Assembly (NCBI GenBank): GCA_013911975.1
Contig: JACESF010000002.1
Location: forward strand, 94,822-158,821
Length of the DNA stretch: 64,000 nt
From: Hyphomicrobiales bacterium
GTDB lineage: Bacteria; Pseudomonadota; Alphaproteobacteria; Rhizobiales; Xanthobacteraceae
Direction: 5' to 3'
Both the position numbers and the translations under genes were made by a program. The notes beneath the pieces were generated by a model. That model saw only the letters and a list, made by a program, of their open reading frames with translations, was not told the DNA's origin and made no database searches. Of the stretch, positions 3,334 through 13,862 are shown piece after piece. Position 1 is the stretch's first letter, and the number at the start of each line of letters is the position of its first letter.

Positions 3334-4022
3334 GCAGCAAGCCCGATGATGTCGAAACCGGCGACGGCGTGCACAAGGGGCACCCCGTCATCGTGGACCG
3401 CTACACGCTGGCGGCCCGTATCAACCATTGGGTGACGGCCATCAGCCTGATCCTGCTGGCGCTGTCGGGCATGGCGCTGTTCAGCCCCAAGCTGTTCTTC
3501 CTGACCGCCCTGTTCGGGGGCGGCCAGGCCACCCGCGCCATCCATCCGTGGATCGGCGTGGTGCTGTTCTTCTCGTTCCTCGGTCTCTTCCTGCGCTTCT
3601 GGAAGGCGAACCTCTGGAAGAGCGAGGACGGCACCTGGCTGCGCCGCATCCGCGACGTGATCGCCGGGCACGAGGAACGGTTGCCGGAACTGGGCAAGTA
3701 CAATGCCGGCCAGAAGTTCGTCTTCTGGGGCATGTCCTTCCTCATCCTGGTGCTGATCACCAGCGGCTTCGTCGTGTGGGACCAGTATTTCTACCAGTTC
3801 ACCAGCATCCCGCAGAAGCGGGTGGCGATCCTCGTGCATGCGCTGGCGGCCATCGCCATCATCTGCGTCTGGATCATCCACGTCTATGCGGCGATCTGGG
3901 TGCGGGGCACCATCTCGGCCATGACCCGTGGACAGGTCACGGGCGGCTGGGCCTGGCGCCACCACCGCAAGTGGCTGCGCGAACTGGTGGGCCGGCGGCC
4001 CGGCGGCACCCCCGCCGAATGA
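3330..4022 (+). CDS. fdnI: Formate dehydrogenase cytochrome b556 (gamma) subunit
   Basis: Multi-TM b-type cytochrome with [18 protein letters not shown]...; ATGA overlap with fdnH. Confidence 0.93.
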
Positions 4023-6606: not shown

Positions 6607-7393
6607 CCGTCTGCGCCGTCCGGCGGCGCCCGAAGCGGAAAGCGAGCCCGAGGCCCAGATGGAGCGCGCCCTCGCGGCGGCGCGCGCGGGCGACTATGCA
6701 ATGGCCCTCGACATCTGGGAGCGGCTCGGCCGCGCCGGCCACGCCCGCGCCCAGAACAATATCGGTGCCTGCTTCGCCGAGGGAATCGGCGGGCTGGAGC
6801 GTGACCCCGCCCTTGCCGAAAAGTGGCTCTCCCTGTCCGCCGATGCGGGCGACCCGGTGGGGCAGCGCAATCTCGCGGCGCTCTATTTCAAGGGCGAAGG
6901 CGTCGCCCAGGATTATGCCCGCGCCGCAGAGCTTTACCGCGCCGCCGCCGAGCAAGGCGACGGCCCGGCGCAGGACATGCTGAGCTGGATGCTCCTGGAA
7001 GGCGAAGTGGTGGCGCTGGATGTCGCCGGGGCGCGGCGCTGGGCGCAGGCGGCGGCGGACCAGGGCATCGCCTCCTCCATGACCCGGCTCGGCATGCTCC
7101 ATCACAACGCGCTGGGCGTTCCGCGCGATGCCGCCGAGGCGGCGCGCTGGTGGCGCCTCGGCGCCGCGCGGGGCGATGCGGACGGGCAGGCCATGCTGGG
7201 CGCCGCCCACCATCTGGGCGCGGGCGTGCCGCGCGATCCCGAGGCCGCCTATGAATGGCTGCTGCGCGGCCATGAGGGCGGCAGCGGCCTCGCCGCGCCG
7301 TTCCTGGACGTGGTGCGCGCCGCCCTCTCGTCGGAAGCCCGCGCCGAGGCCGAGCGCCGCGCGCGCCTGCCCCTGACGGAGGCCGCGCCGTGA
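6593..7393 (+). CDS. Sel1-like (SLR/TPR) repeat protein encoded between selA and selB
   Basis: Tandem Sel1 repeats ([70 protein letters not shown]...). Probable GTG start at 6593 overlapping the selA stop; 3' end overlaps the selB start. Confidence 0.85.
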
Positions 7394-9558
7394 TCATCGG
7401 CACGGCGGGCCATATCGACCACGGGAAGACATCCCTGGTGCGCGCCCTCACCGGCGTGGATACGGACCGGCTGAAGGAGGAGAAGGCCCGGGGCATCTCC
7501 ATCGACCTCGGCTTCGCCTACATGCCGGTGGAGGGGGGAGAAACCCTCGGCTTCATCGACGTGCCGGGCCACGAGAAGTTCGTCCACACCATGTTGGCGG
7601 GCGCGGGCGGCATCGACTTCGCCCTGCTGGTGGTGGCGGCGGACGACGGAATGATGCCGCAGACCCGCGAGCACCTCGCCATCCTCGACCTGCTCGGCCT
7701 CACGCGCGGCGTGGTGGCGCTCACCAAGGCGGACCTCGCCGACGCGGCAAGGCTCGCGGCGGTCACGGCCGAGATCGCCGCCGCGCTCACCGGGACGAGC
7801 CTGGAAGGGGCGGACATCCTCCCCGTGTCCAGCACGGCCGGACAGGGCGTCGATGCCCTGCGCGCGCGCCTCGTCGCGGAAGCGGCGGCGCCCCGGAGCC
7901 GCCCGGAGGACGGGCGCTTCCGCCTCGCGGTGGACCGCTCCTTCACCCTCGCGGGCGCCGGAACGGTGGTGACCGGCACGGTCCTGTCCGGCGTCGTCCA
8001 TGCGGGCGACCGGGTGCAGGTCAGCCCCACCGGCCTTGAGGCCCGCGTGCGCTCCATCCGCGCCCAGGACCGTCCCTCCGACACGGGCCGGGCGGGAGAC
8101 CGCTGCGGCCTCAACCTCGCCGGTCCCGCCATCGCCAAGGACGCGGTGGCGCGCGGCGACGTGGTGCTCGACCCCGGCCTGCATGCCCCCACCGACCGGA
8201 TCGACGCGACGCTGCGCGTTCTGCCCGGAGAGAAGAAGCCCATCGCCCAATGGCTGCCGGTGCGCCTGCACACCGCCTCCCGCGAAGTGGGTGCGCGGCT
8301 GGTGCTGCTGGGCGAGCCCATCGCGCCCGGCGAGAGCGGCCTCGTGCAGTTGGTCATGGAGGCGCCCGTGGCGGTCGCCTCCGGCGACCGCTTCGTGGTG
8401 CGCGACACCTCCGCCCAGCGCACCATCGGCGGCGGACGCCTTCTGGACCTGCGGGCGCCCGCGCGGCGGCGGCGCACGCTGGAACGGCTGGCGCAGCTCG
8501 CCGCCCATGCCCGGTCCGCGCCCGCCGAAGCGGTGGCGGCGCTGCTGGACATCGCGCCCTTCGTGCTGGACCTCGCCGCCTTCTGCCGCGACCGGGCGTT
8601 GCCGGAACAGGCGGTCGCCGGCATCCAGGCGGAACTGGACCTCGTGAGCCTTCCGGCGGGCGGCACCGCCCATGTGATGGCGCGCGCCCTCTGGACCGAC
8701 TTCCGCGCCGCATTGCTGGAGCGGCTCGACACGTTCCACGCCGACAATCCCGACCTGCCGGGCATGGGCAGCGAGCGCATGCGGCTTCAGCTTCAGCCGC
8801 GCCTGCCGGGCCCTGTCTTCGCCGCCGCCCTGGAGCATCTGGCCCGGGAGGGGCTTATCTCCCGCCAGGGCGCCTGGGTGCGCCGGGCCGGTTTCGAGGT
8901 GCGCCTGACCCCGCGCGACGAGGCCCTGTGGGCGCGCACCTTGCCCCTCATCAGCGGCACGGAACGGTTCCGCCCGCCCCGGGTGCGCGACATCGCGGGC
9001 CTGCTGGAGGAACCGGAGGCGGACATCCGGCGCATGATGAAGCTGCTGGGCCGCATGGGGCGGGTGGACGAGGTGGCCCACGACCACTTCTTCCTGCGCG
9101 CCACCGTTGCGGAAATGGTGGCCATCCTCGTGCGGCTCGATGCCGAGCATGCCGCCGCCTTCACCGCGGCCCAGTTCCGCGACCAGGTGGAGAACGGCCG
9201 CAAGGTGGCCATCCAGATCCTGGAATTCTTCGACCGCCACGGCGTCACCTTGCGCCGGGGCGATCTTCGCCGCACCAATCCGCACCGGCTGGACCTCTTC
9301 CGCCCGGTATCGGATGATGCGCCGGCGCAAGAGTCGGTTGTGTCCGATGCCGGGTCGGATGCCTCCGACGCGGGCGCCGGGCAGGATGGAAGAGAAGCGT
9401 CCCTGGTGGGGCGTCCGGACTTCAAATCCGGGAGGGGCCGCGAGCCGGTCCTTGGTGGGTTCGACTCCCACTCTCTTCCGCCACGCCCCCCAAACGGCCC
9501 TGCCCCGCGCCCGGCGCCTCCGGCCGGCCCGGGACACCGGAAAGGCGGAACGCAATGA
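7390..9558 (+). CDS. selB: Selenocysteine-specific elongation factor SelB (open frame runs through selC)
   Basis: [33 protein letters not shown] GTPase motifs and C-terminal winged-helix domains ending near [30 protein letters not shown]. No stop codon until 9558. Confidence 0.95.
9388..9483 (+). tRNA. selC: tRNA-Sec (anticodon TCA), CCA encoded
   Basis: 8-bp acceptor stem GGAAGAGA/TCTCTTCC, 6-bp D stem CGTCCC-TGGT-GGGGCG, anticodon arm CCGGA-CTTCAAA-TCCGG (TCA at 9422-9424), long variable arm GGGCCG...CGGTCC, T arm GTGGG-TTCGACT-CCCAC, discriminator G + CCA. Confidence 0.97.
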
Positions 9559-11697: not shown

Positions 11698-11803
11698 AAA
11701 AGAAAAATGCCGGACCTCTTGCGAGGTCCGGCAAGTATCGCCGCAGAGCGGCGAACCTTCCAGAGGGGAACAATTGCTACACCGCACAGGGTGCAAGCAA
11801 TGC
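11698..11803 (-). ncRNA. Candidate AbcR/alpha-r15-like sRNA downstream of lsrB-like LysR gene
   Basis: Minus-strand TTGCAT-17 nt-CATATT promoter (11838-11810); SL1 ATTGC.TGCACC-CTGTGC-GGTGTA.GCAAT; single-stranded TGTTCCCCTCTGGAAGGTT (anti-Shine-Dalgarno-like); SL2 CGCCGC-TCT-GCGGCG; terminator GCCGGACCT-CGCAAG-AGGTCCGGC-ATTTTTCTTTT. Confidence 0.7.
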
Positions 11804-11854
11804 ACGAGAAATATGCCCGCCTCTTAGGCAGAATGCAACGCAACATGACCGCAT

Positions 11855-11872
11855 GTCAGGCATGTGCCTGAC
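11855..11872. promoter_or_regulatory. Perfect dyad GTCAGGC-ATGT-GCCTGAC centred about -60 of the predicted sRNA promoter; candidate LysR recognition site
   Basis: Seen directly; position fits the usual LTTR recognition site. Confidence 0.5.
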
Positions 11873-11922
11873 GCTTAGCTCCCCCCGCGAATTTCGCGGA
11901 AACGCGGGAAAATGGTCATATT

Positions 11923-12813
11923 TCAGTAATTCCAACGCTGTGCTTTGGAAATTAAGAAGTCGCGAAACACCTGGATGCGCGCCACCGAGCGCATTTCCTG
12001 AGCATAGGTGAAATATGCCTCCAATTGAGGCGTTTCCCGATCGGTGAAGAGCTGCACCAGGGAGGAGGCGTCGTCGGTGAGATAGTCCGGCAGCGTGCCG
12101 ATGCCGACGCCCCGCTCCACCGCCCGCCGCAGGCCCAGGACCGAATTCACCTCGAACGCCGGCACCCGCGGCGCCCCGCCTTCCCGCCCGGCATGCTCCA
12201 GCCAGTTAAGCCCTTGGAAATAGCTGGGAATCGGCCCGCCCAGCAGGAGGATGCGGTGCTTGTCCAGCTCGTCCAGCGAGCGGGGATGACCGTGCCGCTT
12301 GATATAGTCGGCCGAGGCATAGGCATGGAAATGCACCGTGAACAGCTTGCGCTGCACCAGGTCCGGCTGCACCGGCTGGCGCATGCGGATGGCCACGTCC
12401 GCCTCCCGCATGGCGAGGTCCAGTTCCTCGTCGGTGAGGATGAGCTGGATGCGGATGTCCGGATACAGCTCCACGAACTCGCCCACCCGCGCCGTCAGCC
12501 AATGGGTGCCGAGCCCCATTGTGGTGGTGACGCGCAATTCACCGTTGGGCTTCTCGCGGCTGTCGGTGAGCTGGGCGCGCGCCGATTCGAGCTTGAGGAA
12601 CACCTCATGGGCAGTGCGATAGAGAAGCTCGCCCTGCTCCGTGAGGATCAGCCCGCGCGCGTGGCGGTGGAACAGCGGAACCTTCAGCTCCTGCTCCAGC
12701 GCGGACACCTGACGGCTCACCGCCGACTGGGACAGGCCCAGCGTCTCGCCCGCATGGGTGAAGGAGCCCGCCTCCGCCGCGACATGGAAAACCTTAAGTT
12801 TATCCCAGTCCAT
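11923..12813 (-). CDS. lsrB: LysR-family transcriptional regulator, LsrB/VtlR-like
   Basis: N-terminal MDWDKLKVFHVAAEAGSFTHAGETLGLSQSAVSRQVSALE HTH plus substrate-binding domain; adjacent to trxB as recalled for rhizobial lsrB. Confidence 0.8.
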   Translation of the reverse strand: MDWDKLKVFHVAAEAGSFTHAGETLGLSQSAVSRQVSALEQELKVPLFHRHARGLILTEQGELLYRTAHEVFLKLESARAQLTDSREKPNGELRVTTTMGLGTHWLTARVGEFVELYPDIRIQLILTDEELDLAMREADVAIRMRQPVQPDLVQRKLFTVHFHAYASADYIKRHGHPRSLDELDKHRILLLGGPIPSYFQGLNWLEHAGREGGAPRVPAFEVNSVLGLRRAVERGVGIGTLPDYLTDDASSLVQLFTDRETPQLEAYFTYAQEMRSVARIQVFRDFLISKAQRWNY

Positions 12814-12902: not shown

Positions 12903-13862
12903 TCATTCCGCCGCGAGCGGCGTCTCCTCGCGCGCCAGGAAGCGCTCCGCCTCCAGCGCCGCCATGCAGCCCCGCCCGGCGGCTGTCACCGCCTGGCGAT
13001 AGACATCGTCCGCGACGTCGCCCGCGGCGAACAGGCCGGCCACGGAAGTGGCGGTGGAATCCGGCTCGGTCCAGACATAGCCGTTGGGCTTCAGCCGCAC
13101 CTTGCCCTCCACGAGGCCGGTGGCGGGCGCATGGCCGATGGCGACGAAGAAGCCGTCGGCCGGCACCACCTGCTCGCTGCCGTCGCGCGCATCGCGCAGG
13201 CGCACGCCGGTCACGCGCGGCGGCTCGTCGGCGCCGATGATCTCCTCCACCTCGGCGTTCCAAATCACCTCCACCTTGGGATGGGCGAACAGCCGATCCT
13301 GGAGGATGCGCTCGGCCCGCAGCCGGTCGCGGCGATGGACCAGCGTGACCTTGGCGGCGAAATTGGTGAGGAACAGCGCTTCCTCCACGGCGGTGTTGCC
13401 ACCGCCCACCACCACCACCTTCTTGCCGCGATAGAAGAAGCCGTCGCAGGTGGCGCAGGCCGAGACGCCGAAGCCGCGATAGGTCTCCTCGGTGGCGATG
13501 CCCAGCCAGCGGGCCTGCGCGCCGGTGGCAAGGATCACGGTCTCCGCGAGATAGGTGACGCCGCCCTCGGTCACGAGGCGGAACGGGCGGCTGGAAACGT
13601 CGAGGCTCGCCACATGGTCGGATATGATGCGCGTGCCCACATGCTCGGCCTGGGCGCGCATCTGTTCCATGAGCCAGGGGCCCTGGATGACATCGGCGAA
13701 GCCGGGATAATTCTCCACGTCCGTGGTGATCGTCAGTTGCCCGCCGGGCTGGATGCCTTCGAACAGGACGGGCTGGAGCATGGCGCGGGCGGCATAGATG
13801 GCGGCGGTGTAGCCGGCCGGGCCGGACCCGATGATGACGACCTTGGCGTGATGCGTGGACAT
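12903..13862 (-). CDS. trxB: Thioredoxin-disulfide reductase
   Basis: GSGPAGYTAAIYAARA, CATCDGFFYRGKKVVVVGGGNTAVEEALFL, GLFAAGDVADDVYRQAVTAAGRGCMAALEAERFL. Confidence 0.95.
   Translation of the reverse strand: MSTHHAKVVIIGSGPAGYTAAIYAARAMLQPVLFEGIQPGGQLTITTDVENYPGFADVIQGPWLMEQMRAQAEHVGTRIISDHVASLDVSSRPFRLVTEGGVTYLAETVILATGAQARWLGIATEETYRGFGVSACATCDGFFYRGKKVVVVGGGNTAVEEALFLTNFAAKVTLVHRRDRLRAERILQDRLFAHPKVEVIWNAEVEEIIGADEPPRVTGVRLRDARDGSEQVVPADGFFVAIGHAPATGLVEGKVRLKPNGYVWTEPDSTATSVAGLFAAGDVADDVYRQAVTAAGRGCMAALEAERFLAREETPLAAE

Follow-up and report, generated by a model that had tools for sequence, protein, structure and literature searches.

In the 64,000-nucleotide stretch of DNA analyzed here (the window), three genes follow one another on the minus strand in the order trxB, lysR and a small RNA (sRNA) gene. 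The thioredoxin reductase gene trxB (12903..13862) was assigned by a TIGR01292 match above cut-off, and lysR (11923..12813) encodes a protein of 296 amino acids with PF00126 and PF03466 matches, which we assign as an LsrB/VtlR orthologue, a conserved master regulator. The AbcR-like sRNA gene (11698..11804), placed by its fold, its conservation and a covariance model, has a predicted transcript of about 107 nt that starts ~118 nt beyond the lysR stop codon on the same strand. The LysR protein and its counterpart in Aquabacter cavernae are 100% identical, which marks the source genome as that of an Aquabacter-like member of the Xanthobacteraceae. The initial annotation had described the adjoining gene as LsrB/VtlR-like, and this is borne out: its product shares 57-66% identity with full-length lysR products that adjoin ar15 RNAs in other families, and trxB lies upstream of lysR in the window as in other alphaproteobacteria, the trxB-vtlR order being that stated in PMC7486931.

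The predicted RNA, read from 11804 to 11698 on the minus strand, folds into three hairpins. SL1 (11770..11803) is a shortened 5' hairpin without a CUCCCA (M1) loop, placed by the fold and by covariation of its basal pairs; SL2 (11738..11754; UCGCCGC-ucu-GCGGCGA) is paired in 99.4% of alignment cells; and SL3 (11708..11733) is a rho-independent terminator hairpin of 11 pairs, identified by terminator prediction and covariation, which is followed on the minus strand by TTTTTCTTTT, with the U-tract UUUUUCUUUU at 11698..11707. Between SL1 and SL2 lies the segment TTCCCCTC (in fuller form UUGUUCCCCUCUGGAAGG), where GUUCCC (11771-11766) corresponds to the AbcR motif M2, an anti-Shine-Dalgarno (anti-SD) targeting segment, as defined in PMC5461406. 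M2 is unpaired in the fold; a weak UUCC/GGAA mini-hairpin is also allowed there. The folding energy is -53.8 kcal/mol, against -32.2 +/- 3.6 kcal/mol for shuffled sequences (z = -6.0). An RNA of about 106 nt with this layout had been proposed at the same place and on the same strand, and our prediction agrees with it except in the terminator stem, where 11 pairs are found instead of 9.

We compared the window with related genomes of Xanthobacter, Azorhizobium, Aquabacter and Ancylobacter (hereafter the clade), represented by 39 loci: the window, L002-L038 and L048. A homologue of the sRNA lies downstream of the same lysR in 39/39 loci. Among 24 aligned clade sequences, 16 consecutive positions, forming the block GUUCCCCUCUGGAAGG (11756..11771, minus strand), are invariant. 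Compensatory changes occur in 10 of the 20 base pairs of the clade alignment, affecting three of the four basal pairs of SL1, two pairs of SL2 and five pairs of the SL3 terminator, and 96.9% of cells are paired, compared with 29-49% when the partners are slid. A lack of hairpin conservation in related genomes, which the initial annotation had named as part of a refutation, is thus not what is seen, and on this comparative evidence the element is a real, conserved sRNA gene that is presumably transcribed.

The predicted start site, at about 11803-11804 on the minus strand, is preceded by a -10 element, CATATT (11810..11815), with a CATAT-like position conserved in the clade, and, across a 17-nt spacer, by a -35 element, TTGCAT (11833..11838), in which TTGc is conserved. 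This TTGCAT-N17-CATATT promoter is present as originally read; a generic -35/-10 scan made no call for it, and it is supported by conservation instead. Directly upstream of the -35 region runs a wider conserved string, CATGCCTGnnATGCnGnCA; the conserved element ACATGCCTGACATGCGGTCA lies at 11846..11865 (minus strand), and the core of the candidate LsrB/VtlR element, CATGCCTG, falls within the 11830-11890 fragment. The published LsrB/VtlR box is GCAT-N3-TG-N3-T (PMC7486931); the abcR1 gene of S. meliloti has it between -61 and -49 (PMC8844928). In the window, ACATGCCTGACAT (11865-11853) stands at -62 to -50 and matches six of the seven fixed bases, and NCATGCCTGNNAT is found at the box position in 39/39 clade members; in 23 of these the GCAT form is exact. 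With one mismatch allowed, 136 matches to the box are present in the window where chance predicts 142, and the box therefore counts as evidence only by its conservation at a fixed place.

The LysR-type site anticipated near -60 is thus provided by the published box, conserved in 39/39 loci, rather than by the perfect dyad GTCAGGC-ACAT-GCCTGAC with which it had been equated. The dyad, GTCAGGCACATGCCTGAC, is exact in the window (11855..11872, minus strand; chance expectation 0.11 in the window with up to three mismatches), but it is kept in perfect form in only 3 of the 39 orthologous loci, so that selection does not maintain its perfect symmetry. Only its right half, which the published box overlaps, is conserved, and we reject the perfect dyad as the LysR site.

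The short distance from the lysR stop codon, on the same strand, would fit a processed piece of the lysR transcript, from its 3' UTR or terminator, that lacks its own promoter, a reading that we consider highly improbable for two reasons: (i) the arrangement of -35, -10 and box between lysR and the RNA is conserved and (ii) the gap between lysR and the sRNA widens to 740-955 nt in many Ancylobacter loci, with the sRNA still downstream. At the one locus checked, L020, an opposite-strand ORF of 169 aa intervenes between the two, and the sRNA there is consequently an independent unit and not a product of the lysR 3' UTR.

In rhizobia and Brucella, AbcR-type sRNAs silence genes for nutrient uptake. 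The assignment of the window RNA to this family (AbcR/alpha-r15), made in the initial annotation, holds with respect to homology, locus, box, M2 and hairpins, but not with respect to the Rfam score or M1, which is absent. The Rfam ar15 model (RF02345) aligns to the window RNA in the correct register but, at 14.1 bits, falls short of its 40-bit cut-off, and a search with this model gave no match anywhere in the genome. The suggested covariance-model check therefore came out negative for Rfam ar15, but a model built only from clade sequences, the window included (R1), finds all 30 Rfam-ar15 loci tested (L082-L111; E 1e-8 to 6e-3), these being the loci fetched from other families after location by the Rfam model. 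The same lysR lies within the fetched 1.5 kb in 19 of these 30, and clade RNAs and ar15 loci share identical core blocks of 16 to 22 nt that include M2, e.g. TGTTCCCCTCTGGAAGGT. The score of R1 on the window itself, 110.4 bits, is high by construction, since the window is part of the training alignment. The sRNA is the only R1 copy in the genome, a count that is provisional in an assembly 91.5% complete. A second exact TTCCCCTCTGGAAGG (L113) is located within a substrate-binding-protein coding sequence (FVPLWKEK) and is not a paralogue, and the second-best R1 match in the genome (L121, E 0.04) is a terminator after an apparent flagellin-type gene.

At the gathering threshold, the only Rfam match in the whole window is a tRNA-Sec gene (9388-9479, plus strand), which lies within the 3' end of the selB ORF (7390-9558, plus strand, 722 aa). 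TIGR00475 spans selB residues 1-627, and the tail of the ORF reads through the tRNA-Sec gene; this is either a same-strand overlap or a mis-extended ORF. Matches to SorX, gyrA, nadA and TCV_Pr were weak (14-18 bits) and were dismissed as chance. Elsewhere in the same genome, RF02347 (ar45) has a match above cut-off at C52:12261-12415.

We also evaluated whether the window RNA could be a member of MmgR (RF00519, 'suhB') instead of an AbcR counterpart, given that MmgR belongs to the same Rfam clan as ar15 (CL00108) and that its 3' part resembles the window RNA. RF00519 reaches 41.1 bits on Ancylobacter L033, at the 41-bit cut-off, and below it 34.4 bits on L022 and 25.8-27.1 bits on L002, L008 and L009. 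On the window RNA, however, it scores under the report threshold and does not reach the gathering score, and the genome has two separate clear RF00519 copies on contig C98 (72.5 and 66.1 bits) with a different core, GCCCTCCTTGGGCGTTTCCTCCCTAGACTT, at another locus. In its GUUCCCCUCUGG core, its neighbouring lysR and its LsrB box, the window RNA agrees with AbcR1 instead. Because these two MmgR genes, with their different core, lie on another contig, the window element is not the MmgR of this genome, and membership in MmgR is very unlikely. The two copies stand in tandem (C98:3394-3469 and 3830-3910) between an ORF that reads as an N-formylglutamate amidohydrolase and an inositol-monophosphatase-like ORF. 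Finally, ORFs of 97-164 aa overlap the sRNA stretch, but the probability that it encodes a small protein is negligible, as the two overlapping ORFs tested have no Pfam match, indels of non-multiples of three occur in SL1 and in the terminator loop across relatives, and the conservation of the stretch tracks base pairs.

Within the AbcR family, to which we return, the clade differs in its targeting motifs. The AbcR RNAs of Brucella rely on M1 (CUCCCA) in the first hairpin and on M2 (GUUCCC) in the stretch that separates the first two hairpins (PMC5461406). M2 is present and invariant in 39/39 clade members, whereas CTCCC, corresponding to M1, is found in 0/39; it is present in most ar15 loci and in Pseudolabrys/Pseudorhodoplanes-type relatives. 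The box and M2 are 86-95 nt apart in clade members, compared with mostly 102-123 nt in other loci, from which it follows that the 5' hairpin has become shorter irrespective of the exact start site. The 39 loci without M1 form one group on the LysR tree (support 98/94), consistent with a single loss.

In the nearest sister group (L039-L042, L044 and L045) both motifs are changed, with TTCTCCCTCTGGCAGG as the M2 core and CTTCCCCCTTCCC in the loop of SL1. As judged by the M2 pattern, there is no AbcR-like core downstream of lysR in L043, L047, L049, L061, L065, L066, L072 and L073; R1 gives matches in L065 (E 0.005) and L047 (E 0.27), and some of these loci end soon after lysR. It is possible that they represent losses of AbcR.

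Cysteine is absent from the window LysR protein and from all 39 clade LysR proteins, a feature that is not unique to the clade, as many lysR products encoded beside ar15 RNAs of other families are likewise cysteine-free. The LsrB proteins of Agrobacterium and Sinorhizobium are described as cysteine-based redox sensors (PMC11975290). Since the described LsrB proteins sense redox through cysteine, the signal of the cysteine-free clade LysR is probably different and would have to be something other than thiol oxidation. On balance, we lean towards a description of AbcR1 from Xanthobacter to Ancylobacter as a single targeting module, in which the anti-SD loop of SL1 was lost once and M2 alone carries the control of ABC uptake by the LsrB circuit, under a cysteine-free LsrB switch to which thiol redox sensing is not available.

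The initial annotation had suggested CU-rich complementarity to ribosome-binding sites of liv and other ABC-transporter genes, and we analyzed 54 substrate-binding-protein (SBP) genes of the same genome (PF13458, PF00497 and PF00496) together with 236 other genes from sampled contigs as controls, start codons and control genes being called by a simple script. Counting at least 8 contiguous nucleotides complementary to the M2 core, UGUUCCCCUCUGGAAGG, between -40 and +3, sites were found at 9 of the 54 SBP genes and at none of the 236 controls (Fisher p = 1.5e-7), in agreement with the suggestion. In a control that held the SD-like core constant and shuffled its flanks, nine or more genes with such sites turned up in only 6, 0 and 1 of 2000 shuffles, depending on which of three cores was chosen. 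An earlier version of the test, with unreliable start calls, had given only a trend (p = 0.05). The enrichment is partly an SD effect, because SD sites are stronger at SBP genes than at controls and SBP starts are also enriched in sequences complementary to M1. Examples are TCCAGAGGGGA, which precedes an SBP_bac_5 gene (L160), and CCAGAGGGGA, which precedes a gene of the Liv type (L137); the former site is intact in one close orthologue and the latter in four (9-10 nt), and both are absent from more distant homologues. An hfq gene is present in the genome.

With the gene, its structure, conservation, synteny, box, loss of M1 and enriched target complementarity all read from sequence, we propose the following mechanism. 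The LsrB/VtlR-type LysR protein would bind the conserved CATGCCTGnnATGC element at about -60 and activate the sigma-70-type promoter of the sRNA. The resulting RNA of ~107 nt would present one anti-SD segment, GUUCCCCUCUGG, between SL1 and SL2, and act in trans, probably with the assistance of Hfq. This segment is predicted to pair with the ribosome-binding sites of several ABC-transporter SBP mRNAs, mainly of the branched-chain amino-acid (Liv) type and some of the peptide type, and such pairing may block their translation and so repress the transporters. With M1 gone and SL1 shortened, all targeting in the clade would pass through M2. Overall, we consider it highly likely that the sRNA is the clade's counterpart of AbcR1, a trans-acting RNA regulated by LsrB/VtlR that targets SBP mRNAs via M2 alone.

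In the collection of papers searched, nothing was found on AbcR RNAs of Xanthobacter, Azorhizobium or Ancylobacter. Work on AbcR RNAs is concerned with their two separable targeting motifs and with their regulation by LsrB/VtlR, and the clade offers a natural M1-minus experiment across dozens of species, with one RNA copy and predicted targets in the window genome. As the Rfam ar15 model misses this whole branch, AbcR RNAs are under-counted.

Among known systems, NfeR1 (alpha-r14, RF02344) is likewise an anti-SD sRNA acting on ABC-transporter SBP mRNAs, but it has three identical anti-SD motifs and no Hfq interaction (PMC8844928), and RF02344 has no match to the window. The closest likeness is to AbcR1 of Sinorhizobium, Agrobacterium and Brucella, with which the window RNA shares: (i) the locus downstream of lsrB/vtlR; (ii) the LsrB box at about -60; (iii) the three-hairpin layout with a rho-independent terminator; (iv) M2 GUUCCC within an identical core of 16 to 22 nt; and (v) complementarity to ABC-transporter SBP start regions. 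It differs in the absence of M1, in the shorter distance from box to M2, in a score below the Rfam cut-off and in its single copy, whereas AbcR genes occur in tandem or in multiple copies, as described for the Rhizobiaceae and Brucellaceae (PMC3712013). By these comparisons the sRNA is a diverged branch of AbcR with one targeting motif, lying outside the Rfam definition of the family, and by analogy with AbcR1 it would serve the same function.
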